A stretch of DNA of 47,808 bases from Dehalococcoidia bacterium. Lineage in GTDB: Bacteria; Chloroflexota; Dehalococcoidia; UBA3495. Below are positions 3,740 to 25,573 of the stretch, in pieces. The stretch lies in assembly GCA_030753265.1 (NCBI GenBank), contig JASMCQ010000030.1:1-47808 (forward strand), read 5' to 3'. A program made the translations under genes and the position numbers. Below the pieces are notes generated by a model. It saw only the letters and a list, made by a program, of their open reading frames with translations. It was not told the DNA's origin and ran no database searches. Each line of letters opens with the position of its first letter. The stretch's first letter is position 1.

Positions 3740-4771
3740 CTAGCGGTTCGTTTCGCCGTCTTGCTTCTCCTTTCTCCGTAGCAGCCTCAGCCCCAGGACC
3801 TGGACGATAGCCACTCCAGCGACCACCAGAAGGGGGCTAATGTAGGCGAAAGGCCCCACAGCCTTCTCCAGGCTCAAGAAATACCAGGTGGAAATGGCTT
3901 TCTCTCCCCCCCGCTCCTTGCTGCTTCCATCCCAAGCCGCGAAGGCCAGCGGCATGGTATCGCCGCGCTCAAAGGAGAATCGCTCCTGGGCCCGGGGAAT
4001 GGAGATCACGGTCTTCCAGCCGCCTTCTTTCCTCACTCCCTTGCCGGAGCCGTCCTGCTTCCCCACGTTCACAGAGCTGATGGTGCCGAACCCTTCGGCC
4101 GTGAGCTTCTCCACGGGCGTTTTGGCCTGCAAATCGGGGTTGGCGAGGGAACTGCCCGCCCACCAGGAGGTATGAAATACCTTATTGGCCTCTTCTTTCC
4201 CGTAGTCGGACGCCTCGGCAATCTCACCCGGGCCCCGCCCCGTGAATGGGTACCAGTCCACGGCTATGTTGGGGAACTCGTCGTTTGTGTCGTAGTCACT
4301 GGCGAACTGCCAGTCCGCTTTCCAGTGGTAGATGGTGACCGGGTTGTTCAACTCCCCCATTCCGAAATACGGAATGCCCTTGGTCGACTCGGAGGGAAAC
4401 TGGACGGCAACGGCATCCCGGAAAGAGCCCACACCGCCAATGCTCACGTCTTCACCGGCGTCGTCCCATTCCAGCAAGAATGCAAGCCTGTTATCGTCGT
4501 AGAGCGCACGGGCCGTCACGATTCCCACCCCGGTTTCGTAGGTGCGCGGTTTTACTACCGCCTGGGGCGCCATTGGCACTTCCAGGGAATCCGCCTTTTG
4601 CCACAGGCTGGCCTCGGGATCGTCGGGGACACGGTCTACCTGCTTGGCGATGAGGCTTGCCTTCTGAGCCGACACGCTCCTGGTGAAAGGCCAGACTAGC
4701 CAGCCAACGGCGGCGGCGGAAGACGCGAGCAACATGGATCTTCGACTGATCAGAGATTTTCCGGCGTTCAT
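3740..4771 (-). CDS. type II DMSO-reductase family gamma subunit (heme b, ethylbenzene-dehydrogenase gamma-like)
   Basis: The heme-b subunit that carries electrons between the beta subunit and outside acceptors or donors. The N-terminus has a twin-arginine signal (SRRSMLLASSAAAVGWLVW). The body matches the EB_dh fold: LAFLLEWDD near residue 100, then PYFGMGELNNPVTIYHWKAD, where Met138 is the likely axial heme ligand by analogy with EbdC, and a later Lys in the KGVRKEGGWKTVISIPR stretch. A C-terminal hydrophobic helix (about 312-332) followed by basic residues should anchor it in the membrane, unlike soluble EbdC. ATG start with AGAGG just upstream, 6 bp after the chaperone gene. Confidence 0.88.
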   Translation of the reverse strand: MNAGKSLISRRSMLLASSAAAVGWLVWPFTRSVSAQKASLIAKQVDRVPDDPEASLWQKADSLEVPMAPQAVVKPRTYETGVGIVTARALYDDNRLAFLLEWDDAGEDVSIGGVGSFRDAVAVQFPSESTKGIPYFGMGELNNPVTIYHWKADWQFASDYDTNDEFPNIAVDWYPFTGRGPGEIAEASDYGKEEANKVFHTSWWAGSSLANPDLQAKTPVEKLTAEGFGTISSVNVGKQDGSGKGVRKEGGWKTVISIPRAQERFSFERGDTMPLAFAAWDGSSKERGGEKAISTWYFLSLEKAVGPFAYISPLLVVAGVAIVQVLGLRLLRRKEKQDGETNR

Positions 4772-4777
4772 GGACCT

Positions 4778-5524
4778 CTACCCCCTTTCCGCGGCGGGGA
4801 CAACGAGTGGGCAGGCCTCGCAATCCGGCATTCCTTCTTCGGATGGCTCCACGATGACCGGGTCGCCCACTTCGCCGGGCTCAAGCCCAAACGTTCGCAT
4901 CTCGAAGGTCAGAAACGCCATCAGCAGCTGGCCAATCAGCCCGTACAAGGTACTCCCAGTCCCCGTCTCTAGCTTCTGGACGAACCCAAACGCCCACTGG
5001 CCCAGGTGCTCCCCCAGGAACTTGGCCTGGGCTTCTCTACACACGGCCAACTGCTCTTCCGGGTGCCCTTTGGCGAGAGCGTAGGCTTCCTTGAGGCACA
5101 GAACGTGCATGAACTCCAACTCGACGCCGATATGGTCCAGGCGGTCATTGAAATCCGGGGCCAACTCCTGGCCAAAAGCCCGGTAGAACCCAGCAATGTC
5201 GGCCAGGTTCTGAGATTTCTGGAAAATGTGAGACTGCCCATACTCGGCCTCGTAAGGAGGAAACTCTTTGGAAATAGTATGCCCAAAGGTCCTGACGTAT
5301 TCGGACTCAAGTTCGCCGGGAGAGTAGGACATGATTGCGGGCCTCAAGGCCCGCAACGCCCCGAGGTTGGGCCGGTCCGCCAAGACCAAAAAGCGGTTCT
5401 CCAAATCCGGCAGGCGGCTCTGCAAGAACTCTACCAGGTCCGGGTCTGGGTAAGAGAATGCGGCAGAAATGAACTCGTAGGCCCTGCTCCGGGCCATCGG
5501 TTTACAGCCACAGGTTTCACACAT
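4778..5524 (-). CDS. TorD/DmsD/NarJ-like maturation chaperone
   Basis: An all-helical cytoplasmic chaperone expected to hold the alpha subunit until molybdenum cofactor insertion and TAT export. Family marks are LESEYVRTFGH, PPYEAEYG, the DHIGVELEFMHVLCLKEAYA helix, and a C-terminal Cys pair in CEACPL. About 248 residues is normal for the family. It lies 13 bp after the beta gene and 6 bp before the gamma gene, the usual position in type II DMSO-reductase operons. The start is taken at ATG 5524; two TTG codons lie just upstream (5533) and ATG 5497 is also possible. The short N-terminal CETCGC segment is unusual. Confidence 0.85.
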   Translation of the reverse strand: MCETCGCKPMARSRAYEFISAAFSYPDPDLVEFLQSRLPDLENRFLVLADRPNLGALRALRPAIMSYSPGELESEYVRTFGHTISKEFPPYEAEYGQSHIFQKSQNLADIAGFYRAFGQELAPDFNDRLDHIGVELEFMHVLCLKEAYALAKGHPEEQLAVCREAQAKFLGEHLGQWAFGFVQKLETGTGSTLYGLIGQLLMAFLTFEMRTFGLEPGEVGDPVIVEPSEEGMPDCEACPLVVPAAERG

Positions 5525-5537
5525 GGCCAACAACCCC

Positions 5538-6812
5538 CTAGATCGCGTTGTAGTGTTTGCCGGGGCGGATATATGTTGGCTCCTCTACCGACACCCGGGC
5601 TATCTCTTTGCCGCTCTTGCTGTACCCCACCACCGTGTCGTTGAACATCTCCCACTTCTTGCCGTTGATGGTGGTTTCAAAGACCTTCTCACCCTCGATG
5701 ATCTCATACCTGAAGGCAATCGTCTGAGAAGCCCGAAATAATTGCAGCACGGCCAGCAACTCCCTGGAGGGAGCGGAGTATTTCTCGAGGGCCTCGTCCA
5801 CGCCGGGGCCGAACATCTGCCGGAGGTAGGCTCTGGGCGCCCACCGGGGCGGTATGTAGTACCCGTTGGGCTCGGTGCCGAACTGAGGGTAGAGGGGCAG
5901 GGCGATCTTCTCCGTTTTGATGAGGTAGTACAGAGGGTTGTCCCGGTCTTCGACCCAGCTCCCGTCCTCTTTGACCTCGACCAGCCCTTGGAGGCGTATC
6001 TTCCCCACGCAAGCCGCCATGCAGCGGGTCTCCATGGGCTCCCCCTCGGAGATGGGGTCCTTCCCCTCGATGCGGGGGTAGCAGGCGATGCACTTCTCCG
6101 TAACTCTCGTGGTGTCCCGGAACATGGGTTTCTTGTAGGGGCACTGCATGACGCACTTTCGGTAACCCCGGCACCTCTCCTGGTCGATGAGCACGATTCC
6201 GTCTTCTTGGCGTTTGTAGATGGCCTGCCGGGGGCAAGCGGCCAGGCACGCCGGGTAGGTGCAGTGGTTGCACAGGCGCTGGAGGTAGAAGAACCACGTC
6301 TCGTGCTCGGGAAGGGCCGCGGGCATCAGGTTTAGCAGGTCCCGCTGGTCCCGGGAGCCGGTGGCTGTATCCTCGTAGATGTTGGGAGACCGCCACTGCT
6401 CATCGGTGGGTTCGTAACCCAGGGCGACCTCCTCCCGCTGTTCCGAGTGTCTCGCTGCCTCGAAGATGGTCATACCTTCGTAGGCGCCATAAGGCCGCTG
6501 ATCGCCATCCCGCTGCGAAGGGTCCCAGATGGCCTCGCGGCCCGCATCCTGGTGAGCCTGGTCCAGCATACCCAGAAGCCTGGCATCCCAAAACTGGGGG
6601 TAGCCTCCGTAGGGCTTGGTCTCCACGTTGTTCCACCACATGTACTCTTGACCCTTGGAAAAGGTCCAGGTGGCCTTACAGGCCATCGTGCAGGTCTGTC
6701 AAGCGATGCAGCGGTTGGTGTTGAAAACGAAGGCGAACTGCCAACTGGGATGCTTCTCCTGATAGGGGTAGTGCATCTGCCGGCCAAGCTGCCAGTTGTA
6801 CACGTCAGGCAT
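5538..6812 (-). CDS. type II DMSO-reductase beta subunit, four Fe-S clusters, with in-frame UGA
   Basis: The electron-transfer subunit, about 424 residues if the UGA is read through. Start ATG 6812 has GGAGAGGAG upstream and overlaps the preceding gene by 8 nt; it gives MPDVYNWQLGRQMHYPYQEK, typical of EbdB/SerB/DdhB. Codon 38 (6701-6699) is TGA inside the first cluster motif: C35-x2-TGA38-x2-C41-x3-C45, where a Cys is expected. Later motifs are intact: C181/184/189/193, C214-x2-Tyr-x2-C220-x3-C224 (Tyr rather than Cys suggests a 3Fe-4S cluster, as in EbdB), C241/C244 and C264/C268. A gene caller would start at ATG 6686 and lose the first 42 residues. Either selenocysteine, a nonsense mutation, or a sequencing error explains the stop. 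The rest shows no decay. Confidence 0.88.
6671..6701 (-). promoter_or_regulatory. candidate bacterial SECIS hairpin after the beta-subunit UGA
   Basis: Downstream of the TGA (6701-6699) the minus strand folds TGGCCT-GTA-AGGCCA (6685-6671), a perfect 6-bp stem with a 3-nt loop beginning with G. The loop G is 20 nt after the UGA, within the window usual for bacterial SECIS elements. The same bases encode the conserved MACKAT, so the hairpin may be fortuitous. No selenocysteine machinery lies in the window. Confidence 0.35.
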
Positions 6813-7077
6813 TGGGCTCTCCTCTCTTGATCCAGCCGCGGCTCCATTTATCCCGGACCCGCTGAATTACCGATTGAACGTACTCCTCGCCCCTTTCGTG
6901 GTAGATGCGATGAGTTGCCTGGAAGAATGGGTTTGTGAAAATGGACATCAATTGTCCGTCGTTCCACCCCAAGAGCAGATACTCCTCCACCACGCACTCC
7001 GCCATGTAGTCCGCGTCCCCTTGGGGCAGGGCTATCCCCACCAACTCCATCGGGTCTTGGGGTTCGAAGGCTTTCAC
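6805..7077 (-). CDS. small unknown protein between alpha and beta subunit genes
   Basis: Ninety residues, start GTG 7077 with GAGGAG 7 nt upstream, beginning 2 bp after the alpha-subunit stop; its end overlaps the beta start by 8 nt (ATG inside the stop region), so all three are translationally coupled. The sequence is acidic at the N-terminus and helical later (EYLLLGWNDGQLMSIFTNPFFQATHRIYHERGEEYV is paraphrased here as an aromatic-rich helix at about 32-68). There is one Cys, no signal peptide and no membrane segment. I do not recognise the family. Position suggests an assembly factor or accessory subunit of the molybdoenzyme. Confidence 0.8.
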   Translation of the reverse strand: MKAFEPQDPMELVGIALPQGDADYMAECVVEEYLLLGWNDGQLMSIFTNPFFQATHRIYHERGEEYVQSVIQRVRDKWSRGWIKRGEPNA

Positions 7078-7079
7078 GG

Positions 7080-10000
7080 TTAGCTCCTCACCCTGGTGAC
7101 GTCGCCCTTTATGTACCTGGCCATGAAGCTGCTCTCGTTGGCGGGTGAGTAGCCTGTGGTCGCCGGCGTCCAGACGCCTACGCCGTCCATCCCCCCTGCT
7201 TCGGCCTTCTCAATCTTTATCAGGGTCTCCTTGGGCACCGTGTTGATGCCGTGGTTGTCCGCTTCAAACCCGAAGATGAAGGACATGAGTGCCTTGGCCT
7301 TGTGAAAGAGGTTGTCCGTCTGGTGCATGGGCATGAGCCAGCTACGGGTGATGCTCTGCTGGGAGCCGTAGCGGAAACTGGACTGATACCCGGTGTCGGC
7401 CGACAAGGCGCGTCCATCCGCGCGGCTCTCGTGGGCCAGCACGCTCCTCTCGGTGGCGATGAACGAAGCGTGCTTCATCATTGTGAAGTTGTAGGGATAA
7501 GCAGGGTTATACTTGACCCGAATCTTCAGCCGGGAGACCTTGTAGAAGTAGTCGTCCTGCTGCCAACCAACATAGGGCCGGTCGGCGGGGTTGGCGTCCA
7601 CGTGCACGTAGTCGCCGTCCGCGATGTCCAGGTCCCGGGCTGCCTGGGGGTTCATGTGGATTTGCCACTCACCCACCCCCGGGCTCCGCTTGTCAACGCG
7701 GTAGGGGTCGCCGAAGTTGTTGCTCCAGATGAAGTTCCAGTCGGTGACCGTCCACTGGGAGTGAACGGTGTGGCGAGACTTGGGGGTGGTGCAGAGGAAA
7801 CGGTAGCCCAGGCCCCAGAGGGGGTTCTCTGTGTTCTTCACCTCAGCCCAGGTCAGCTTGTTGTTGGCCACCGTCCGGAGGTCCGCGTCCTGAACCTTCT
7901 CCAGCAGCATAGCCGGGGTGATGCCGTTGTTTTCCGGGCGAATGAAGGGGTTGGAGGACACGATGACGTTGGGCAGGTAAGGCGTGGCCTCCGGGGCCTC
8001 CCGGTGAACGACGAAGTTTTCGCCATACTCGATGGCCTCAGGGATGTCGCAGTAGGCGTTCAGCCTGCCGGTATCGGTCAGGAAGGGGACGCTTTCGTGC
8101 ACCTGCTCCCAGAAGGCGATCCTCGGGTAGCTCCTGAAGAGCATCAGCGCGCCGCCGCGCACCCCGTATTTCCCGTCCAGGACGTCCTTGGTGGTGTAGC
8201 CATGGCTGGTGGTTGAGGTGTCCAGCAGCCGGTCGATGTAAACGTCCTCGCGCCCCTGCCGGGCGAAGGTCCAGTAATCCTGGAACCGGGGGTCGCCGGT
8301 GAGTTCGGTCAGCTTCTCCGCCACGCCGGGATAGATTTGCAGGTCATCCTTGCTGTCGAATAGTGGCTTGATTCCGTCCTTCCCCCAAATCTGTAAGAAG
8401 GGGTTGGAGCACGAGTTGGTGATCTCCAGGCTCTGGAACTCCATCCAACAGTTGGCGGGCAAGATGAAGTCGGCGTACTCGCACGTGGCGGTCATCTCGA
8501 TGTCTTGAGTGACAATCATGTCAACCTTGGGGTTGACGTTCTTGATGAGTTCGTAGGCCCACTTGGCGTTGTTGATGAGGTTCACGTTAGTGGTCCAAAT
8601 GACCTTGGTTGGCGTGGGCAGGTGGGTCGTTCCGGTGAAAACCTTGCGGCCGAACTTCGGGGTGTCCACAATCAGCGCCTTGTCCCGGTGGGCCCAATAG
8701 CCGACTTCCTCGCCCCGGGCGTAGCCGTGGACATACTCCTTGGTCATCGGCTGGTTCGAGTCCAAGAGGGGATTGAAGGGGTCTTCCGCCACCCAGCCCT
8801 TGAAGCCGGGGCCCGACCACTCCGAACCCTGAAAGTTGGCGGCCTTGTAGTTCCCAGCCCAGGTGTGGGCGCCGCTGCCCGCTATCCCGATGCTACCTAC
8901 CAGCATCAAAGGCAGGTAGGTGGCCCGGTTGTGCAGGGTAGCGTGAAAGTAGTGGTTGATGCCTTCCCCGTAGTGGATGGAGATGGGATAGGCCTCCCTG
9001 GGCTTGCCCATGAAGTCGGGGTCCCAGAACCGCCGGGCGATGTCCTTGGTCAACCGCTCCAACATCTCTTTGGACACCCCGCAAATCTCGTGCACAGTGT
9101 CCATGTCATAGTCCCGGAGGTGAACCTTGTACATCTCCCAGAGGGTCATCACCTCCACCTCGGATCCGTCTACCAGCGTTGCCTTGCCAGTCCACTCCAG
9201 CGCCGGATCGATGCCCTTGTCCGTCAGCGTGTCGCCAACGTCGTCCCGGGTGATCGCCCTGAACCCGTTACTGTTAAAGTCCCATACCACCGGGTCGCCG
9301 ATGATCTCCCGCTGCTCCGATGTTATCCCCTGGATGGTGGAGCTGGGGCCCTTCGTGAGGTCTTGGTTGCTATACCCCGGGAAGATGTCCTTGCCCTTGA
9401 GCCGCTGGAGGGTATCGGTGCGCACCAGCAGCGGGAAATCGGTGTACTGCTTGACGAAGGGCTCGTCGTACCAACCTTTGTCCATGAGGGACTTGGTGAT
9501 GCCCAGAAAGATGCTGGTGTCGGACAGGCCGGGACGCACCGACATCCAGTAGTCGGCCTTGCTGGCGGCGGGGTTGTACTCGGGGGCGATGACCACGAGG
9601 CGCCCGCCCCGCTCCATGATCTCGGTGAGCCAGTGGGCCTCGGGCATTTTGTTCTCGATCAGGTTCTTGCCCACCTGGATGGTGAGCTTGGAGGAGCGAA
9701 CGTCGTTCATATCGATGTCCGAGGTCTGAAGGCCGTGGACGAAGGGATGGCCGGGCGCCTGGTCGCCGTGCCAGGTGTAGTTGGACCAGTTCCGGCTGCC
9801 CAGGGCCTCATCGGGGCCCACTCCACGGATGCGGCTATCCAGAAGGGCCATCATGTTGCTTATGCGGTAGAGCCCGTACTTTCCGATGACGCCCAGCAGG
9901 CCCATGCCGCCCCGGAACTTCATGGTCCGGGTGCCCGCTCCTCCCCAGTGCTCCAGCAACTCGGGTTCGTAGCCGTCTTGGTCGATCAGGCGCCGCCGCC

Positions 10001-10628
10001 CCTCATCGCCGCTGTAGGTCTCGGCGATGGCCATGAGTCCCTTGGCCAGGTACGTGCTGATTTCGTCCCAAGAAAGCCGAACGAACTCGTCGCTGCCTCT
10101 GGAGTCGAATTTGTACTTGGTGCGCCGGCTCGGGTCGTCGGAGAGAGAGAGGAATCCTTCGTCGGCCCACTGCTTCCATCCCTTGCGGACCATGGGATAC
10201 CGCAACCGGTATGGCCCGTATACCCGCCGATGGAAAGTGTAGCCTTTCAAGCACATACGTGGATTCCAGGCTTGCGTTGCCTGGTTGCCGTACAGGTCCT
10301 TGTAGTTCTGGTGCTCGTAAGGTTGCTCCACCCGGGTCACCACGCCGTTGCGGACGAAGGCCTGGATTCGGCACGCATGGGTATCGTTGGGAGAGCAGAC
10401 ATAGGTGAAAGAGCGGTCGTAAGAGTACTGGTTGCGGTATACGTCCTCCCAGGCCCGGTCGGGATAGTACTCCAGCGGGTTATCGATTTGGGCGACCGGC
10501 CTGAGGTTGCGCCCCGCGAAGACCGGCTCCGCATCTAGACCCCGAAGCACACCCGCCGCCGCCACGCCCCCAGCAAGGGCGCCGGCCCCTGTGAGAAACT
10601 TTCTTCGGCTTATCCTACTGTCCGCCAA
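7080..10628 (-). CDS. type II DMSO-reductase family molybdopterin alpha subunit
   Basis: A 1182-residue catalytic subunit binding Mo-bis-MGD and one Fe-S cluster. A twin-arginine signal (SRRKFLTGAG) sends it outside the membrane. The cluster motif is C78-x3-D82-x3-C86, then C126 in NPRMCLKG; spacing of Cys86 to the following NG matches NarG/EbdA, so D82 stands where Cys is usual and C78 where His is usual. The region SNYTWHGDQAPGHP probably carries the molybdenum-ligating Asp of type II enzymes. Later blocks (QVGKNLIENKMPEAHWLTE, VVIAPEYNPAASKADYW, DFILPANCWMEFQS, a C-terminal molydopterin-binding barrel) fit the family. Start is TTG 10628 with AGAGGTG close upstream. Substrate is not readable; nitrite/nitrate, chlorate, selenate or hydrocarbon hydroxylation are all possible. 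Confidence 0.9.
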   Translation of the reverse strand: MADSRISRRKFLTGAGALAGGVAAAGVLRGLDAEPVFAGRNLRPVAQIDNPLEYYPDRAWEDVYRNQYSYDRSFTYVCSPNDTHACRIQAFVRNGVVTRVEQPYEHQNYKDLYGNQATQAWNPRMCLKGYTFHRRVYGPYRLRYPMVRKGWKQWADEGFLSLSDDPSRRTKYKFDSRGSDEFVRLSWDEISTYLAKGLMAIAETYSGDEGRRRLIDQDGYEPELLEHWGGAGTRTMKFRGGMGLLGVIGKYGLYRISNMMALLDSRIRGVGPDEALGSRNWSNYTWHGDQAPGHPFVHGLQTSDIDMNDVRSSKLTIQVGKNLIENKMPEAHWLTEIMERGGRLVVIAPEYNPAASKADYWMSVRPGLSDTSIFLGITKSLMDKGWYDEPFVKQYTDFPLLVRTDTLQRLKGKDIFPGYSNQDLTKGPSSTIQGITSEQREIIGDPVVWDFNSNGFRAITRDDVGDTLTDKGIDPALEWTGKATLVDGSEVEVMTLWEMYKVHLRDYDMDTVHEICGVSKEMLERLTKDIARRFWDPDFMGKPREAYPISIHYGEGINHYFHATLHNRATYLPLMLVGSIGIAGSGAHTWAGNYKAANFQGSEWSGPGFKGWVAEDPFNPLLDSNQPMTKEYVHGYARGEEVGYWAHRDKALIVDTPKFGRKVFTGTTHLPTPTKVIWTTNVNLINNAKWAYELIKNVNPKVDMIVTQDIEMTATCEYADFILPANCWMEFQSLEITNSCSNPFLQIWGKDGIKPLFDSKDDLQIYPGVAEKLTELTGDPRFQDYWTFARQGREDVYIDRLLDTSTTSHGYTTKDVLDGKYGVRGGALMLFRSYPRIAFWEQVHESVPFLTDTGRLNAYCDIPEAIEYGENFVVHREAPEATPYLPNVIVSSNPFIRPENNGITPAMLLEKVQDADLRTVANNKLTWAEVKNTENPLWGLGYRFLCTTPKSRHTVHSQWTVTDWNFIWSNNFGDPYRVDKRSPGVGEWQIHMNPQAARDLDIADGDYVHVDANPADRPYVGWQQDDYFYKVSRLKIRVKYNPAYPYNFTMMKHASFIATERSVLAHESRADGRALSADTGYQSSFRYGSQQSITRSWLMPMHQTDNLFHKAKALMSFIFGFEADNHGINTVPKETLIKIEKAEAGGMDGVGVWTPATTGYSPANESSFMARYIKGDVTRVRS

Positions 10629-10670: not shown

Positions 10671-11438
10671 TTACCTGGGCGTGTGGCCCGTTTCGTCATA
10701 CAGGTACACGATGACCTTCCACGCCTCGTCCGATGACAGGTCATTGGAGTGAAGTGTGGAGGCGTCGGGTTCTTGGTCTGAGGCCACCCAACGGGGCATG
10801 GCGCTATTGAACTGGTTCTGGATGCCGCCGGTGGTCAGCCTCCAATAAACGTAGGGAAGCGTAAGCTGGGCAATGGTGCCCGGGTCTTGGAAGCTGGCGG
10901 GGCGAATGGGATAGCGAAAGCCCTCGGCGGCCGGGCCTTTGCCATCCAGTCTTTCCCCGTGGCATATGGCGCAGTTGCCCCCGTAAAGGAGTTTTCCTTC
11001 CTCAACGGCCGCTGGGCTCCAGTTGGCCGGCTCCGCCGCCCATTCCGGCACCTCAATGCGGCTCAGGATTTCTTCACCCGCGGTGGGGTGCCGCTGGAAG
11101 ATCTCCACGGGCGGAGAGTAGCTGGGACGCATGGCGCCATAGACTCCCCAACCCAAGACCAGCGGAACCACCAGAAGCAGGATCCAGCGTTGTGCCCGGT
11201 GTGTTGCGGTGTCATTCGCGGTTCCAACGAAAAAGTCCCGGAACCGCTGCATCCGGCCATCATCCAGGGTAACATGGATGATGACGCCGGCAATCACAAA
11301 CCCCATGTACAACAAGATAATGCTGCCTGGGAACACGGGCCGGACGAGCTTCAGCAGGACGAACATCCCGGCCAGGACCAGGAAAGCGCCTACGGGCAGG
11401 GGCACGTTGCGGGCCCAGGATGGAAGGCCGGGCCTCAT
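10671..11438 (-). CDS. membrane-anchored monoheme cytochrome c
   Basis: 255 residues. The N-terminal third has about three hydrophobic helices (VGAFLVLAGMFVLLKLV, IILLYMGFVIAGVIIHVTL, WILLLVVPLVLGWGVYGAM). The C-terminal part is a class I cytochrome c domain with CAICH heme attachment (NCAICHGERLDGKGP) and a likely axial Met in SAMPRWV. It probably shuttles electrons between the gamma subunit and the bd-like protein on the outer face. ATG 11438 has GGAGGTGG upstream and overlaps the diheme cytochrome stop by 4 nt (ATGA). It ends 42 bp before the alpha gene. Similar three-helix cytochromes accompany cytochrome complexes in other phyla. Confidence 0.88.
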   Translation of the reverse strand: MRPGLPSWARNVPLPVGAFLVLAGMFVLLKLVRPVFPGSIILLYMGFVIAGVIIHVTLDDGRMQRFRDFFVGTANDTATHRAQRWILLLVVPLVLGWGVYGAMRPSYSPPVEIFQRHPTAGEEILSRIEVPEWAAEPANWSPAAVEEGKLLYGGNCAICHGERLDGKGPAAEGFRYPIRPASFQDPGTIAQLTLPYVYWRLTTGGIQNQFNSAMPRWVASDQEPDASTLHSNDLSSDEAWKVIVYLYDETGHTPR

Positions 11439-12280
11439 TGTCCACCTCCAGAGGAAAGAAGATAATCGAGCAGGGCTTCAAGTTGTCCGGCGGTCATCTG
11501 GTCACCGAAGGTCGGGGGCATGACGCCGGAGAGGGTTCCCTCTTTTTCGAAGGCGCCGGGGTTCACGATGGACTCTATTACGTAGGCCCTGGGGCTCACC
11601 CCTCGGCCCGACGCTGTGTCCTTGAGGCTAGCCGCGTCCAGGGCCGGTCCCACCAGCACCACGCCAGGATCCAGGCTGTGGCAATTCCCGCAGTTGAACG
11701 CGGTAAAGATAGCCACGGGGTCTTTGACCGACGCTTCAACTGGCGATGCGCCGCCGGTGGCGGCCACTCCACCCGCCGTATCCCCTGATGGCCTGGGGAT
11801 GTCGCCTAATTTCGCCGAGGGCGTTCCTCCCAGAGACTGCAGGTAGTTGACGACCGCCACGATCTCTTCGTAGGTAAGTTTTGCCGGGGCGCTCGTGGCC
11901 GCCGGCATTATGTCGGCATACCCTTCCACCAGGTAGGCGCCCGGCTCGTAGAGGGCCTGGGCCAGGTATTCGACCAGGTCGCCGGGTCCTCCATCTACGC
12001 CCTGGGCCCTTCGGGTGGCCAGGCCGGCCCAGTTTGGCCCCCGGCCTCCCCCTTGAACCCCAGACCCGGGCTCGATCGTGTGGCAGGCCAAGCAACCCCG
12101 CTGGAGCGCGATGGTCTGGCCGACATCCGCCAACTGGGCCGGGGTCATGCTCGCGCCGATGTCCTGTTTCTCAGGGGGGTCCCATTCCGTCTGAGGTATC
12201 CAGTTGGCGAACCAGACGAAGAACCCAAGGATAATCAGGGCCGGGGCGGTGGCCACCGCGTACTGCCGAACTCGCGTCAT
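11435..12280 (-). CDS. membrane-anchored diheme cytochrome c
   Basis: 281 residues with one N-terminal membrane helix (APALIILGFFVWFANWI) and two cytochrome c domains. Heme sites are GCLACH and NCGNCH; likely axial Met residues are in DIMPAA and GVMPPTF. A Gly/Ala/Thr-rich linker joins the domains. The start ATG overlaps the stop of the bd-like gene by 4 nt and its own stop overlaps the next cytochrome gene by 4 nt, indicating coupled translation and stoichiometric synthesis. Role inferred: electron relay between the molybdoenzyme and the bd-like protein. Confidence 0.88.
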   Translation of the reverse strand: MTRVRQYAVATAPALIILGFFVWFANWIPQTEWDPPEKQDIGASMTPAQLADVGQTIALQRGCLACHTIEPGSGVQGGGRGPNWAGLATRRAQGVDGGPGDLVEYLAQALYEPGAYLVEGYADIMPAATSAPAKLTYEEIVAVVNYLQSLGGTPSAKLGDIPRPSGDTAGGVAATGGASPVEASVKDPVAIFTAFNCGNCHSLDPGVVLVGPALDAASLKDTASGRGVSPRAYVIESIVNPGAFEKEGTLSGVMPPTFGDQMTAGQLEALLDYLLSSGGGQ

Positions 12281-14049
12281 GCCCGCTCCCCCGCAGCCTG
12301 CAACCGCTGCCCTCTGCTTGCCTCGGCCTCTGCTTCAACCACCGGGTCCCTTCCCATCATGCCGGAGATGGCGAAGGAGACGGCCAGCAGGGCGAAGAAG
12401 ATCAGGGTAATCAACGTTATGACGATGGCGGCCTCGCCGAGAGACGGAAGACCAGCCCCGGCGGAGGTGTCTTCCATGATGCCGAAGACGTGCCAGTTGA
12501 GGCGGACGCCACTCCTCGCGTAGCCCATGAGCCCCATGAGCCAGACGATGACGAAAGCCAGGGCTATGAGCACGTACTGGCCCCGCTGGGGCATGCTGCC
12601 CCATCGCACCGCGGCCACCGTCTGCGACCCCCGCAACAGGAACACGTCCAAGGTAAAGGTGAAGGCGATGCCGATCATGAGGACCACGATCTGCAACACA
12701 GACGTGTCGATCCGCGTTTCTGCCGAGGAAAAGTAGCCGACCACCCCCAGTACCGTGATAGCCACTGCGGTCAAGCCCAGAGCGCCCCACTGGATGATGT
12801 TCCCGGTGCGGCTCCACGGAACGGTCAGAACCCGCCCGGCCCGGCGGTAGAGGAGGTAGCTGGCGTAGAGGACCACCAGGATCAGGGTGACGGCGATCAT
12901 CTTGGGGGCCATAACCCCCAACGCCCCCAGGATGGGGTGGAAACCGCCGGTGGACTCCTCAATGGAGGCCGCCATGGTGTGGGGGGTCGCCCACACCATG
13001 AACCCGACGATAAGGACGACGTTGAAGACGGGGGTCCACTTCCGCTGGGCCTCAGAGCCGGGGATGCGGATGAGGCCCAGCCAGGCGTAGTAGGCCGCGC
13101 CGATGAAGAGGACGGCGATGACGATGGCCTGGATTATGAACAGCCAGGAGAGAACCCCTCCCATGAGGGTCACACCGTAGGTGGCAGAGTAGGAAAACAG
13201 CTCGAAACCGAAATAGTAGCCTACAAAAGGCAGGAAAAGCATGGTGAACAGGGCAATGAGGTTGCCGGTGTACCCCATCCAGTCGTAGAAAGCCCGGTCC
13301 TCTTCCCGTTCCGCGGCAATGAACCGGTAGGCGGCGTAGGCCCCTGCCAACAGGGCGCCGAGGGTGATGTTGGCCACCAGCCGGTGGATATTGAGGGGCA
13401 TCCAGCCCGGGTTCCACACGGCGTTATACAGGCTGGTCAGGTTGCCTACCTCGTCCACGCCGCCGGGGGTCATCATAAAGGTGGCCCAGGAGTCGGCGGT
13501 GAACAAGATGGCGGTGCCAAAGATGTTCAGGGCCAGCCCCAACAGCAGGTGGATCCATTTCTTGTTGCCTTGAAGCTGGTTCCAAGAGTAGTAGTAGAAA
13601 TAGAGGGAAAAGGTCTCGGCGAGGAAAAACAACGGGTAAACCCACATGGTGGGCCCCATAATGTCCGTAAGGTAACCCATGAAGCGCGGGTACAGGGTAA
13701 AGAGCAGGATAGCCATCATGGCACCCAGTATCGCCGTGATGGAAAAGGCCGGGGGCAGCAACCGGGCCATCTCGTGCGCCAAGCGGTCGAAACGCTTTTC
13801 CTTGCGGCGCCAGCCCATGAACTCGATGACCAGGGCGAACATGGGCACCGCCAGCACGAAAGCGGCGAAATTCAAGTGGAGCTGGGCCGCCATCCACACG
13901 GCCAGCCGGCTGCCGACGCCCGCAAGCTCCCGGTATTCTCCGGTAGGTGCCGGCCCCTGGGCCCAGACAGTCCCCGTCCCCAGCAGCAGCAGCAGGGCCG
14001 CCAGCGACAGTGCTAAAAAGAGCTTCCACGTCCGTTTGACGAACATCAT
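12277..14049 (-). CDS. cytochrome bd oxidase subunit I-like membrane protein
   Basis: 590 residues, many membrane helices, with a signal-peptide-like N-terminus (LFLALSLAALLLLLGTGTVWAQ). CydA-like marks: His58 in AQLHLNFAAF (cf. heme b595 ligand His19), the FMGYLTDIMG loop, Glu145 in FFLAETFSLYFYYYSW (cf. CydA Glu99), DSWATFMMTP, and His222 in LNIHRLVANITLGALLAG (cf. His186). It is longer than CydA, with several extra C-terminal helices, and I see no quinol-binding Q-loop and no CydB gene. With two cytochromes c following, it may take electrons from cytochrome c rather than quinol, as proposed for bd-like proteins of nitrite oxidisers. First gene of the operon; no confident promoter found in 14050-14151. 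Confidence 0.82.
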   Translation of the reverse strand: MMFVKRTWKLFLALSLAALLLLLGTGTVWAQGPAPTGEYRELAGVGSRLAVWMAAQLHLNFAAFVLAVPMFALVIEFMGWRRKEKRFDRLAHEMARLLPPAFSITAILGAMMAILLFTLYPRFMGYLTDIMGPTMWVYPLFFLAETFSLYFYYYSWNQLQGNKKWIHLLLGLALNIFGTAILFTADSWATFMMTPGGVDEVGNLTSLYNAVWNPGWMPLNIHRLVANITLGALLAGAYAAYRFIAAEREEDRAFYDWMGYTGNLIALFTMLFLPFVGYYFGFELFSYSATYGVTLMGGVLSWLFIIQAIVIAVLFIGAAYYAWLGLIRIPGSEAQRKWTPVFNVVLIVGFMVWATPHTMAASIEESTGGFHPILGALGVMAPKMIAVTLILVVLYASYLLYRRAGRVLTVPWSRTGNIIQWGALGLTAVAITVLGVVGYFSSAETRIDTSVLQIVVLMIGIAFTFTLDVFLLRGSQTVAAVRWGSMPQRGQYVLIALAFVIVWLMGLMGYARSGVRLNWHVFGIMEDTSAGAGLPSLGEAAIVITLITLIFFALLAVSFAISGMMGRDPVVEAEAEASRGQRLQAAGERA

Positions 14050-18710: not shown

Positions 18711-19973
18711 TCAGGAACCGGGGCCCTGCCCATCGTCTCCGGGTGCTCCGGCGGCGCCCTGGTCCGAGGGGCGCCGCCAGGGCATCCTGCCCATTTCGGA
18801 CATCAATCCTTGGATTAGTTCCACTGTGACCACATCGTCTCCCCGGCTGCGGGCCCGTTCCTCTATGGCCCGCTTCACCCTCGACCGGATGAACCCCGGC
18901 GCCCGCTGAATCCGCGACTGGGCTTCGGGTGTCCAATCCAGCTCTCGCGGTGCGGCCGCCAAACCGCCAACAGGCTGATAGTCGCACCAGGGGTCTTCAC
19001 CGAGGTAGTCGCCCGTCGTGGCGAAGGCACGAGCGCGGCAGCCGACGCACCCGTCCGCGAACTCGCACACCCCGCATCGTCCCGCAAGCTGGGGTCCGCG
19101 CAACGCCTTGAGGTGGCGCGAGCCCTCCCATATCTGCCGGAGGGTGTATTCCTTAACGTTGCCCGCCACTAGGGGCAGGTAGGGACAGGGTGTAAGGTCT
19201 CCTCTGGGGGTGATCCGGCAGTAGCTGGTCGCCGCCATGCAGCCCGCGCTTCCCAGCAGCGAGGAGCCCTGCTGAGCCGCTATTCTGGTGAAATGCGGGG
19301 CGCACCGGGCGCGGACCATCATTCCAGGGTAGTGGTTCTGGGCCTCCACCAGGTATTGGAGGGTCTGCTCGTACTGCCCCGGAGTGATGTCGGTGAGCTT
19401 TTCGCCCCGCCCGGTGCACACCAGAAAGTAGATCATGACGCCTTGCACCCCCCTTGCGGAGGCGAATTCGAGGAGCTGAGGTAGCTGCGCGCAGTTCCAT
19501 TGGGTGACCGTGGTGTGCACCAGGACGCCGATGCCCGCCGCCTGGCATTGGTCGATTCCCGCGACGGCCCTGGACCAGGCGCCCGGAAGACCCCGGAATG
19601 AGTCGTGTTCCTCGGGGGTTATCGCGTCCAGGCTTATGCCGACGCTCATCACGCCGCTATTGGCCAGCCGCTTGGCCACCGTCTCGGTGATCAGGATGCC
19701 GTTACTTCCCATCACCACGGCTATGCCTTTCTTCGAAGCGCACTCGGCGAGGTCGTAGGCGTCGGCGCGGAGGAGCGGTTCACCTCCGGTGAGGATCAGC
19801 ATTTCCGTCCCCATGTCGGCCATCTGGCCGATCAGGTCCAGCCCCTCGGCGGTAGTCAACTCATCCTTGCCCACCTTGGCGGCGGCAAGATAGCAATGGT
19901 CGCAGGCCAGGTTGCAACCCGAGGTTATGTTCCAGGAGATGAGCCGGGGCTTATACTCAAGAGTCTCGTGCAC
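18711..19973 (-). CDS. radical SAM/SPASM protein, AhbD/NirJ-like, with C-terminal PCP_red-like module
   Basis: 420 residues. The radical SAM motif is C20-x3-C24-x2-C27 (CNLACDHC), with GGEPLLR at about 64. A SPASM-type auxiliary cluster region follows: C246/C253/C264 (CMAATSYCRITPRGDLTPCPYLP, two shorter motifs) and C301/304/310/313 with C331. The phrases YFLVCTGRGEK and CRARAFATTGDYLGEDPWC are those of AhbC/AhbD/NirJ heme-synthesis enzymes, which decarboxylate or modify porphyrin side chains. Residues 346-393 (LDWTPEAQSRIQRAPGF...) form a PCP_red-like helical module absent from standard AhbD. The tail (394-420) is disordered. It follows the zinc-ribbon gene by 15 bp and is co-transcribed with it. 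Exact substrate not known. Confidence 0.87.
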   Translation of the reverse strand: MHETLEYKPRLISWNITSGCNLACDHCYLAAAKVGKDELTTAEGLDLIGQMADMGTEMLILTGGEPLLRADAYDLAECASKKGIAVVMGSNGILITETVAKRLANSGVMSVGISLDAITPEEHDSFRGLPGAWSRAVAGIDQCQAAGIGVLVHTTVTQWNCAQLPQLLEFASARGVQGVMIYFLVCTGRGEKLTDITPGQYEQTLQYLVEAQNHYPGMMVRARCAPHFTRIAAQQGSSLLGSAGCMAATSYCRITPRGDLTPCPYLPLVAGNVKEYTLRQIWEGSRHLKALRGPQLAGRCGVCEFADGCVGCRARAFATTGDYLGEDPWCDYQPVGGLAAAPRELDWTPEAQSRIQRAPGFIRSRVKRAIEERARSRGDDVVTVELIQGLMSEMGRMPWRRPSDQGAAGAPGDDGQGPGS

Positions 19974-19988
19974 GCTCTCGCTTCCTAG

Positions 19989-20636
19989 TTAAGGATGGTG
20001 AAACCCGGCCCCGCCGCCCCAAGAGCCCTTGGCTTCCTCCACAAGCTCCGGGGTGATCTCGCCGGCCCCCTTCCGCTGGGCGTGCGCCTCAATGGCCTCG
20101 ACCACCATCCCCCTGACAAAGGGCGGGATGCGCTCGATCCGCTCCAGGGCCTCGGCGCTCCAGCTCATCTCGCTGGTGGCCTTCTCCGAGCCGCTGGACC
20201 ACTGATCGTACTTCTCCTCCATCAGGGCCACGGTCACTATCGCCTCTCCTCTTCGTTTGGCCAGGTGCTCCACCCTTTGCCGGGTTAAATCGCGCATGAT
20301 GCCCTCGGGCACCCGCCCCAAACGGGCCGCTGCCTCCGGAGTCCAATCCAGGTCCTCAACGGTGGACCCGCCGGTTGGCTCAGGAGAGGGCCGGCCGCCC
20401 CGCTGGTGCCGGCCGGCATCCAGGGATTGCTCCATCGGGGGAGAGGGATCATTCCCACCACCCCCCATCTGAATCCCGATGGCGCCAGCCAGTTCCGTTT
20501 CGCCGGGATTCGTCAGGAGGCCCACCTGGGCCCCGCAGGTCTGGCAACTGAAGGTCATCGCTGGGGAGCCTTCATCGGGGTCCCTGTTCTCCAAGCGTTG
20601 CATCGGCGCGTCGCACTTTACGCAAAGGAGTTTCAA
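19989..20636 (-). CDS. zinc-ribbon protein with two PCP_red-like modules
   Basis: 215 residues. An N-terminal zinc ribbon (C5-x2-C8 and C31-x2-C34) is followed by a Gly/Pro-rich linker and two helical modules, residues 96-143 (LDWTPEAAARLGRVPEG) and 157-203 (MSWSAEALERIERIPPF), each with the W-[TS]-x-E-A...P...R...E pattern of PCP_red. TTG start at 20636 with AAAGGAGG 6 nt upstream. It heads a two-gene unit with the radical SAM enzyme. Function unknown; a carrier or scaffold for a tetrapyrrole intermediate is a guess based on the company it keeps and on the domain's origin in dark-operative protochlorophyllide reductase. Confidence 0.8.
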   Translation of the reverse strand: MKLLCVKCDAPMQRLENRDPDEGSPAMTFSCQTCGAQVGLLTNPGETELAGAIGIQMGGGGNDPSPPMEQSLDAGRHQRGGRPSPEPTGGSTVEDLDWTPEAAARLGRVPEGIMRDLTRQRVEHLAKRRGEAIVTVALMEEKYDQWSSGSEKATSEMSWSAEALERIERIPPFVRGMVVEAIEAHAQRKGAGEITPELVEEAKGSWGGGAGFHHP

Positions 20637-23212: not shown

Positions 23213-25111
23213 ATGAAGGTCGCCGCAGTCTGGTGCAGAGTCTCCACCCATGACCAGCGGGAGCTGTCCCTGGACAGCCAAGAAATCGCTGTCCGAAAGG
23301 CGCTTGAGGCCCAGGGCTATGATGCTCCACCGCAGTACGTATTGACGGTGGATTGGTCGAGCCTGGACCTGATGTCTTGTCCTGAGTTCCGGCAGCTCCG
23401 TCGATGGATCGTTGACGGCACAATCCAGGCAATGGGTACTCTTGACCGGGACCGGCTCCAGGCACAAGGTCTGCAGCGGCTCATCTTTCTCTCGGAGTGT
23501 AGAGACAAGGGTGTGGAGATCATCACCGCGCAAGGTCCGCCCATGCTGGAAGGCGGTGAAGGGCAACTGGTGGAACTGGCCCTGGCCTTGGGTAAGGAAC
23601 GGTCGGTTTTGAGGGCACAGCAGGGCGCACGCGATGGACTACGGGACCGGGCTCGCCTCAAGGGTCTACCGCCCAACATGAACAAGCCTTTTGGGATGCG
23701 GTGGGAGAGCAACCGGTTGGTGCCCGACGAGAATTATCCTGTCGCCTGCGAAGTGTGGCGCATGGGCCTGGCAGGAGGGAAGAAGATCATGTCCATCGCC
23801 AAGGAATTGACTCGGAGAGGTATTCTCACCCCGAGCGGCAAGCTCGGTTGGTCTGGCTTTTCAGTGCGGCACATCTTGAGGAACCGGACATACGCCGGAG
23901 TGATTGAGGCGCTCAAGACCGAGTCAGTCGAGCCCAAAGTTCGAAGGGCGGCTACGTATGGAAAGTCCGGCAGGAGGCTCCGTCCCGAAAGTGAGCGTAT
24001 CCGGCTGGAAGGTCTGGTGGACCGGCCGATCGTCACCGAAGCCGAGTTCGGATGGATGCAGCAGCGGCTGAAGGAGAACCAGCGACTGGCGTTAAAGAAC
24101 ACCAAGCTCCGCTATTACCTGCTGAAGGGCATGATTCGGTGTGCCGCCTGCGGGAAGGCTTACGTCGGCGTCACCTTCAAGCGCCCCGGCAAGGAGTATT
24201 CCTACTACGTCTGCGGCGCCCATTGGAAGCGGCCTCTGCGGGGCGAGCTATGCCAGTCTCATAGTCTTGGAGCGGAAGCCATGGAGACGGCCGTCTTTGG
24301 CATGGTTGTGGACTTCCTCGATGGCCCTGAAGGATTTGAGGAAGAGATGCAGCGGCGGCGTGGGATCTCTGCGGAAAGCGAAGCGAGCCTGATTCGGGAA
24401 TTGGAGTCGCTTAATCGGCAAGCTCGCGAAGAGCAGGAGGCCGAGGCCAGGGCATTCCGGCTGGCCTCCCGTGGAACGGTGAGCGAGGAAGTATTCAACC
24501 AGGAGATCGGGCTGATCCGTACAAAACAACGCTGGATTGCCGAGCAACAGGAGCGAGTGGAGCACCAGCTTGAGGACATTCAGCGGTACAGCTTCGACCC
24601 TCAGAGTATAGAGACGTTGCGCCAGCGACTGGAGGCAAGGTTGGCGGCGGCCACTCCCGAGGACCGGCGATTTGTCCTGGAGGCAGTCGGAGCCAATATA
24701 ATCGTCCAAGCAGATGGAGCCTGGGAACTCGAACTCCAGGTCCCGCGTGAAGTCCCGACACCCGAGAGCGATTTACAAATAGTGAACAGCCGACCAGCCC
24801 ACGTCACCATCCAGATTCACGTACGAGATATCCAGGTCCGCGGCCAGGGCCTCCAGGTCGTCTTCTTGGGCGCGGTCGCGCAGGCTTGCCAGCTTGGCGT
24901 GACGGAACAAGGCATCATCCTCCAGGTTGATCTTGGCATCCAGGGCCACCGCCCGGCCGTCGTCGGTGATGACGAGGGGGTTTATCTCCACCAGGGAGCA
25001 GTCGTTTTCGAGAAGCAGCAGGTACATTGCCTCCAGTATCTGGACCACCTCCCGGACCGGCCCCGGATCCAGCTGCAGCCAGCCGGCCAGCCGGCGGGAC
25101 TTATAGGCTGA
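23213..25111 (+). CDS. large serine recombinase (phage-integrase type) with junction-derived tail
   Basis: Catalyses site-specific integration and excision. The resolvase domain has catalytic Ser11 in WCRVSTHDQ and the Arg-containing GTLDRDRLQ region; a recombinase domain follows (GKKIMSIAKELTRRGILTPSG, WSGFSVRHILRNRTYAGV), then a zinc ribbon (C309-x2-C312 ... YYVCGAHW ... LC) and a coiled coil (about 380-460). The family-like sequence ends about residue 525 (near 24790). The remaining ~108 residues are translated from the antisense strand of sucC, so the native stop codon was lost at the junction. Start ATG 23213. It lacks the Tyr/Asp/Glu-perfect motif of small resolvases but the fold order is typical. 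Confidence 0.9.
   Translation: MKVAAVWCRVSTHDQRELSLDSQEIAVRKALEAQGYDAPPQYVLTVDWSSLDLMSCPEFRQLRRWIVDGTIQAMGTLDRDRLQAQGLQRLIFLSECRDKGVEIITAQGPPMLEGGEGQLVELALALGKERSVLRAQQGARDGLRDRARLKGLPPNMNKPFGMRWESNRLVPDENYPVACEVWRMGLAGGKKIMSIAKELTRRGILTPSGKLGWSGFSVRHILRNRTYAGVIEALKTESVEPKVRRAATYGKSGRRLRPESERIRLEGLVDRPIVTEAEFGWMQQRLKENQRLALKNTKLRYYLLKGMIRCAACGKAYVGVTFKRPGKEYSYYVCGAHWKRPLRGELCQSHSLGAEAMETAVFGMVVDFLDGPEGFEEEMQRRRGISAESEASLIRELESLNRQAREEQEAEARAFRLASRGTVSEEVFNQEIGLIRTKQRWIAEQQERVEHQLEDIQRYSFDPQSIETLRQRLEARLAAATPEDRRFVLEAVGANIIVQADGAWELELQVPREVPTPESDLQIVNSRPAHVTIQIHVRDIQVRGQGLQVVFLGAVAQACQLGVTEQGIILQVDLGIQGHRPAVVGDDEGVYLHQGAVVFEKQQVHCLQYLDHLPDRPRIQLQPAGQPAGLIG
24790..24800. other. integration junction (right attachment site) in sucC
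   Basis: On the minus strand sucC reads ...LDGDVG then TGG TCG instead of the expected Cys-Met-Val-Asn codons of the LDGNIGCMVNGAG motif. Homology is lost at about 24795, immediately after GGCTG, and the recombinase 3' end lies on the other side. This places an att site within the Gly-Cys codons. Confidence 0.7.
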
Positions 25112-25573
25112 AATGCCCGTTCCGGGGTCGATGGGCTCGGTGTGGATATCCTCAGGGTTCTTTGCGGCTACCTGCTCAATATCCACGCCGCCGTTGGGAC
25201 AGGCCAGCACCACCAGGCCGCGATACAACGGATCGATGGTAATGGCCAGGTAGACCTCCCGGCTGATGCTGGCCAGTTCCTCCACCAGCACCTGATTCAC
25301 CTACAACCCCTGGGCGCCCGTCTGGTGGGTAACCAGGTTCTTGCCGAGCAGCTCTCCAGCGAGTTGTTCGGCTTCGTCGGGAGAGCGCACGACTCGGATA
25401 CCCCCGGCCGTGCCCCTTCCGCCCGCGTGCACCTGGGCCTTCAGCAGCGCCTGGCCTCCAAGGTCAGCGGTGGCCCGCCGGGCCTCCGAAGGAGAACTGG
25501 CGACCGCACTGGCCGGAACCGGAATGCCGTAGCGCCGGAATATATCTTTGGCCTGATACTCGTGAATTTTCAT
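24795..25573 (-). pseudogene. sucC: succinyl-CoA synthetase beta subunit, truncated and interrupted by an amber codon
   Basis: ADP-forming succinyl-CoA synthetase beta (citric acid cycle). The N-terminal ATP-grasp part is clear: MKIHEYQAKDIFRRYGIPVP, KAQVHAGGRG, LVTHQTG, then LVEEL..ISREVYLAITIDP, LVEINPLVI, ALDAKINLEDDA, and YVNLDGDVG. Two lesions: an in-frame TAG at 25303-25301 right after HQTGAQGL, where homologues continue into V-x-x-VLVEE, and truncation after about 259 of about 390 residues by the serine-recombinase element. The missing C-terminal ligase domain (NGAGLAMATMD..., catalytic partner of SucD) is not in the window, nor is sucD. It is either a dead copy, with a functional one elsewhere, or the cell lacks this enzyme. 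Confidence 0.88.

Follow-up and report, generated by a model that had tools for sequence, protein, structure and literature searches.

A candidate selenocysteine codon at an iron–sulfur ligand position of a nitrite oxidoreductase-type beta subunit from a Dehalococcoidia contig

Introduction

Does the TGA codon that interrupts the beta-subunit gene of a nitrite oxidoreductase (NXR)-type operon on a Dehalococcoidia contig encode selenocysteine (Sec), or does it mark a gene that is being lost or has been misread? The question was raised by a prediction made from the letters of the DNA (the original prediction) and was followed up in the window, i.e. the whole stretch of 47,808 nucleotides that was analysed (contig JASMCQ010000030.1), and in homologous loci, proteins and genomes. 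We give a probability of roughly three in four to the reading in which the TGA at codon 38 encodes selenocysteine, which would make the gene product a candidate selenoprotein. With an independent second case, described below, the sequences make it a strong candidate.

Results

The beta gene and its operon

The gene (Table 1) matches NCBIfam model TIGR03478 with an E value of 1.2e-75 and 254.4 bits, a score below the curated cut-off of the model (480.7). Its best match in the PDB is the nitrite oxidoreductase subunit B, NxrB (7b04_A; E = 4.6e-191, residues 4–424 aligned). The frame is open and conserved on both sides of 6701–6699, as had been claimed. The motif reads NRC-IA-[TGA]-QTC-TMA-CK and the stop was correctly placed by the original prediction at its second cysteine, since 7b04_A and the homologues have Cys in that alignment column. 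The match is full-length with four Cys motifs, and 14 of the 15 conserved cysteines are kept, the fifteenth being the TGA. Stop codons could be created in the gene by 187 single substitutions, 15 of which change Cys to TGA. Both strands of the window were scanned by codon usage for read-through sites (at least 20 codons to the left, 60 to the right and a score above 0.1), and codon 38 was the only TGA with coding-like flanks. A scan with a cut-off of 0.25 gave no site because the beta gene itself scores 0.247/0.246.

The operon contains the alpha subunit, the chaperone and the heme b subunit, as an NXR-type beta subunit requires. The alpha subunit is 81% identical over 1183 positions to that of L004, a locus from a groundwater Chloroflexi MAG in which the same gene set is found together, and the pair of cytochrome c-like proteins is conserved beside NXR in L004 and others. 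The small ORF between alpha and beta has no match to an NCBIfam or Pfam family; it is matched by tblastn (E up to 1e-20) in 36 of the best 80 of 317 NXR loci. The direction of catalysis (nitrite oxidation or nitrate reduction) cannot be read from its sequence.

Table 1. Features of the NXR-type locus in the window and of the second TGA-containing beta gene
Feature	Position	Strand	Remarks
NXR-type (DMSO reductase type II) beta subunit gene	5538-6812	minus	424 codons, one in-frame TGA
TGA, codon 38	6699-6701	minus	replaces second Cys of first CxxCxxCxxxC motif
SECIS-like hairpin TGGCC-TGTAA-GGCCA	6671-6685	minus	nt 14-28 after TGA; loop G20-U21
Cys45 codon TGT	6678-6680	minus	provides GU of hairpin loop
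Ala47 codon GCC	6672-6674	minus	within 3' arm of stem; Ser in 124/129 homologues
Small conserved ORF between alpha and beta	6805-7077	minus	90 aa
Alpha (catalytic molybdopterin) subunit	7080-10628	minus	intact, 1182 aa
Type II enzyme chaperone (delta)	4778-5533	minus	TIGR03482, E 4.5e-25
Heme b (gamma) subunit	3740-4771	minus	TIGR03477, E 9.8e-43; EB_dh
Two cytochrome c-like proteins	10671-11438, 11435-12280	minus	weak matches below curated cut-offs
Cytochrome bd oxidase subunit I-like protein	12277-14049	minus	PF01654, E 4.3e-18
Second NXR-type beta with TGA (L211)	G912:C38:7713-8984, contig L214		TGA codon 35

Homologues at codon 38

Column 38 is occupied by Cys in 126 of 129 aligned homologous proteins, and the other three (P0108, P0122 and P0123) start at an internal Met43. 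At the DNA level all 82 HSPs covering codon 38 in the best 80 of 317 loci read Cys (54 TGC and 28 TGT). Cys38 is also present in P0001, which is 89% identical to the window beta subunit. Three overlapping sets of genomes were searched, drawn from the phylum of G001 (400 genomes), the class of G379 (393) and the order of G003 (250); a match was present in 18 (E 1e-100), 36 (1e-120) and 4 (1e-180) of the genomes, respectively, and the searches listed a single beta subunit with an internal stop, L211. Among 113 distinct beta sequences whose DNA covers residues 35–370 (from L001–L126, L210 and L211) a stop was again found in L211 only, and seven further matches from these searches had no stop according to the stop column of the search itself. 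The view that the TGA is unique to the window within the family was dropped once L211 had been found. An alternation of Cys and TGA among relatives, which had been proposed as a check, is thus seen in part: L211 has TGA at the neighbouring codon 35, and the other relatives with readable DNA all have Cys at 38. The close relatives seen have Cys without exception, which was one half of what the original prediction had named as counting against itself; L211 is 69% identical. The motif pattern had no match in viral contigs.

P0122 is a near-identical protein from another assembly. Counted from Met43, 273 of its initial 274 residues match the window; several frame changes follow, through which it keeps the letters of the other frames of the window, so that the changes look more like read errors than decay. 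They lie near its end, and the missing N-terminus of P0122 could therefore also be an error. P0108 and P0123 likewise start at Met43 and P0154 starts further downstream; from a protein, a TGA, a frameshift and a wrong start are indistinguishable, and these three were not counted as TGA cases as they are known from protein sequence alone. The start of P0154 shows that N-terminal shortening has other causes too.

The hairpin after the TGA

A 6 bp hairpin with a loop starting with G 20 nt after the UGA had been predicted, and it was found at 6685–6671. It can be paired in two ways, with 6 bp and a loop GUA from nt 20 or with 5 bp and a loop UGUAA at nt 19–23. The loose criterion for bacterial SECIS elements was discarded as uninformative; it means little by itself because 8950 of 11082 codons in the window have a downstream hairpin that passes it. 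A hairpin at least as stable as this one follows 1238 of the 11082 codons and 23 of 122 Cys codons in the window.

Closer comparison is possible with the SECIS elements of the Sec-type formate dehydrogenase genes (fdhA) of four loci from related, Sec-using Chloroflexota (L128, L130, L132 and L145), which read TGGCC-GGTCT-GGCCA at nt 14–28. The window hairpin has the same stem letters (nt 14–18 and 24–28), the same register, the same 5 nt loop length and GU at loop positions 2–3; it differs in the loop (UGUAA versus GGUCU), and the fdhA stem is 1–2 bp longer. The fdhA genes of L137 and L138 carry a TCGCC stem in the same place. At least 5 bp in the fdhA-like register follow 118 of 11082 window codons, or four if GU is also required, the window hairpin included, for a narrow template that was chosen only after this hairpin had been seen. 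A broader criterion (at least 5 bp, loop of 3–5 nt, centre at nt 18–22 and at least four GC pairs) was satisfied by 14 of 23 true Sec contexts (6 FdhA and 17 SelD), 346 of 11081 window codons, 4 of 122 window Cys codons and none of 114 homologous Cys contexts. When the GC condition was omitted these counts became 15 of 23, 1114 of 11081, 14 of 122 and 1 of 114, the last being the Cys-coding L051 with a weaker similar hairpin (5 bp, loop GUA). The broader criterion is neither complete nor strict, because 8 of the 17 SelD contexts fail it.

The TGT at Cys45 is the only one among the 14 Cys codons of the beta gene, the genes of the window having 22 TGT versus 100 TGC, and it recurs at codon 45 in 6 of 114 homologous contexts. 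Ala47 is shared with P0001, P0092, P0111 and P0122 and with 8 of 128 HSPs of the loci. All of these other bearers have Cys38 where residue 38 is visible (P0122 lacks this residue); Ala47 alone is no mark of Sec, because P0001 combines it with Cys38.

On free folding, the hairpin is part of the minimum-energy fold of 51 and 53 nt and is absent from that of 42 nt, for which z is -1.49 and 17 of 200 shuffled sequences do equally well. The 42 nt fold is won by another pairing that uses the first nucleotides after the UGA, which would lie within a ribosome stalled at this codon. No RNA family was found by Rfam at gathering scores in the window or in L214/L215. Taken at the level of sequence, the hairpin appears SECIS-like, if modestly so.

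A second case

In L211, from genome G912, TGA replaces the first Cys of the same motif (NINR*IACQTCTYACK, with the asterisk for TGA) and is the only internal stop of a 424-codon frame. A hairpin of 7 bp with its loop at nt 20–23 (ACATGCA-CGTA-TGCATGT) begins 12 nt after the TGA, at a distance like that in the window. It is kept when 42 nt are folded to minimum energy (z = -2.04), and 9 of 200 shuffled sequences do equally well. Stems of 5 bp or more in this zone are seen in 16 of 115 homologous contexts at codon 35; two of the contexts reach 6 bp and none reaches 7 bp, a length that occurs at 1.6% of background positions. No stops interrupt the alpha subunit, the small ORF or as much of the chaperone as the L211 contig includes. 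G912 has SelA (451.1 bits to PF03841 and 562.9 bits to TIGR00474). The six ORFs around its selA comprise SelA, GroEL, RF2, an acyl-CoA dehydrogenase and two without a match, with no SelB among them. ARAGORN found no tRNA in the window or in L215.

In a tree of 44 beta rows the window groups with P0001 and P0122 (100/99) and L211 with P0094 and P0112 (99/79). The two TGAs, which lie at different codons, are best read as independent because these groups are separated by starred forks. We consider it rather likely, if less so than the reading of codon 38 itself, that in Sec-using Chloroflexota selenocysteine replaced cysteine at least twice, at neighbouring ligands of the same Fe–S cluster of NXR-type beta subunits (codon 38 in the lineage of the window and codon 35 in G912).

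Selenocysteine machinery in relatives

Three non-overlapping sets of genomes, picked non-randomly as neighbours in ligA and as bearers of an NXR beta subunit, had full-length SelA (more than 380 bits) in 18 of 30, 11 of 17 and 13 of 17 members, in total 42 of 64 genomes. SelB exceeded its cut-off in 18 of 30 genomes. A tRNA-Sec of at least 63 bits was present in 21 of 30; this cut was set by us, as the gathering score is passed by 28 of the 30 and by 5 of 14 control genomes, in the latter presumably through serine tRNAs. SelD was found in 18 of 20 genomes, most of which had been picked for having SelA. Places of known selenoproteins in the Sec-using relatives contained one in-frame TGA in 7 of 26 cases for FdhA and 17 of 19 for SelD.

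By ligA (best identity 59%) the window groups, without strong support, with G003, G290, G156, G240 and G005. The first four have SelA; G005, a 1.4-Mb assembly, gave a tRNA-Sec match of 68.9 bits and no SelA, SelD or SelB over the cut-off. SelA was found neither in G379 (ligA 59%) nor in G001, the genome of L004, which is the closest full-length genomic relative among the best 80 of 317 loci. On the selenocysteine reading the organism of the window would have the machinery too. The original prediction of selenocysteine is supported by the TGA and hairpin of L211, by SelA in G912, by the fdhA-like register of the hairpin and by the frequency of Sec machinery in the wider group.

Alternative explanations

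The alternative that survives best, and that we nonetheless consider unlikely, is a recent nonsense mutation, present as a pseudogene or a strain polymorphism. The beta subunit would then stop after 37 residues or restart at Met43 and so lack the leading three Cys of the motif; the enzyme would be in the course of being lost. Such a mutation would fit with Cys in all close relatives seen and with the frame changes at the end of P0122. Gene loss does occur in this contig, because a sucC-like (ATP-grasp_2) gene at 24773–25573 (minus strand) carries an in-frame TAG at 25303–25301. This gene is also presumably short at its end, is overlapped on the opposite strand by a serine recombinase ORF (23213–25111, plus strand) and is likely to be a pseudogene beside a mobile element. 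The lack of other decay, which had been put forward in favour of selenocysteine, thus holds for the genes of the operon that were compared and not for the contig: alpha, gamma, the chaperone, the cytochromes and the bd-like protein align nearly full length with L004 and show no other lesion. Nor are changes at conserved columns in excess. At columns where at most two other sequences differ, the window beta subunit and L211 have no departures, as have 114 of 186 other homologues, and at columns allowing one exception the window beta subunit departs once (V to I), a count inside the range seen for the other homologues. A random stop would moreover have had to fall on a Cys codon followed by a SECIS-like hairpin, and the same pairing of stop and hairpin is found at the neighbouring Cys in L211.

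A one-base error of sequencing or assembly is more improbable still. An in-frame TGA in a single sequence counts in the field only as a candidate, according to PMC1088965 and PMC1794560. P0122, however, comes from another assembly, differs from the window and also starts at Met43, as the same TGA would predict (from protein sequence alone); an error would have had to strike a Cys codon ahead of a SECIS-like hairpin, and L211 shows the same kind of TGA independently. A general reassignment or suppression of UGA (e.g. as Trp or Cys) without selenium would account for the clean read-through of the beta frame but is hardly credible, as TGA is the stop codon of 13 of the 23 window genes examined and the codon-usage scan of the window found no other coding read-through TGA.

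Discussion

If the TGA at codon 38 is read as selenocysteine, the hairpin at nt 14–28 would sit at the entrance of the ribosome during translation of the beta mRNA and would recruit SelB with Sec-tRNA, so that Sec would be inserted and termination avoided. In ferredoxin-type and NarH structures one cluster is bound by the leading three Cys of a motif of this kind plus a distal Cys. Sec38 would probably be a ligand in the same way, and together with Cys35, Cys41 and the distal Cys it would hold the first Fe–S cluster of the beta subunit. A selenium ligand might be expected to shift the potential of this cluster or its tolerance of oxidants or nitrosative species.

Cys-type NxrB proteins (7b04_A and Nitrospira, proteobacterial and Chloroflexota homologues) resemble the window beta subunit in full-length sequence, Cys motifs and operon and differ from it by Cys in place of the TGA. 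Loci of the Nitrospira type (L045, L046, L054 and similar) have Asp for the fourth Cys at residue 45 (MADK), as seen in 28 of 128 HSPs, which indicates that ligand swaps are tolerated in the family. In HdrA, selenocysteine ligates a cluster. HdrA and other predicted Fe–S selenoproteins, among them the HgcB ferredoxin and the Fe–S protein NF005503, are listed in Table 1 of PMC13188914; these enzymes are unrelated to NXR and are like the window case in that Sec replaces a Cys of a CxxC-type motif. The same table contains no nitrate reductase or NXR beta subunit, and in a literature search covering mostly titles and the openings of abstracts no selenocysteine-containing NXR or NarH beta subunit was recognized. 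The Sec of FdhA binds Mo or W according to PMC13188914, whereas that of the window would bind an Fe–S cluster. Sec forms are described in PMC1088965 and PMC1794560 as usually sporadic among Cys homologues and as originating where the host has Sec in use already, a pattern that the window case would fit.

Should the selenocysteine reading be correct, a respiratory enzyme of the nitrogen cycle would carry selenium as a natural ligand of its clusters, and in uncultured Chloroflexota the oxidation of nitrite or the reduction of nitrate would be tied to the supply of selenium. The family, in which a single motif would occur with Cys, Sec or Asp, would then constitute a natural test of selenium as an Fe–S ligand. 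Annotation would miss the selenoprotein forms, as genes are called from a start beyond the UGA and three cluster ligands are lost, and further cases may hide among N-terminally shortened annotations such as P0108 and P0123, also called from Met43.

Close to the NXR genes of the window, at 18711–20636 (minus strand), lie a radical SAM protein and a neighbour, both with PCP_red domains; the radical SAM protein has relatives beside NXR in 25 of the best 80 of 317 loci.
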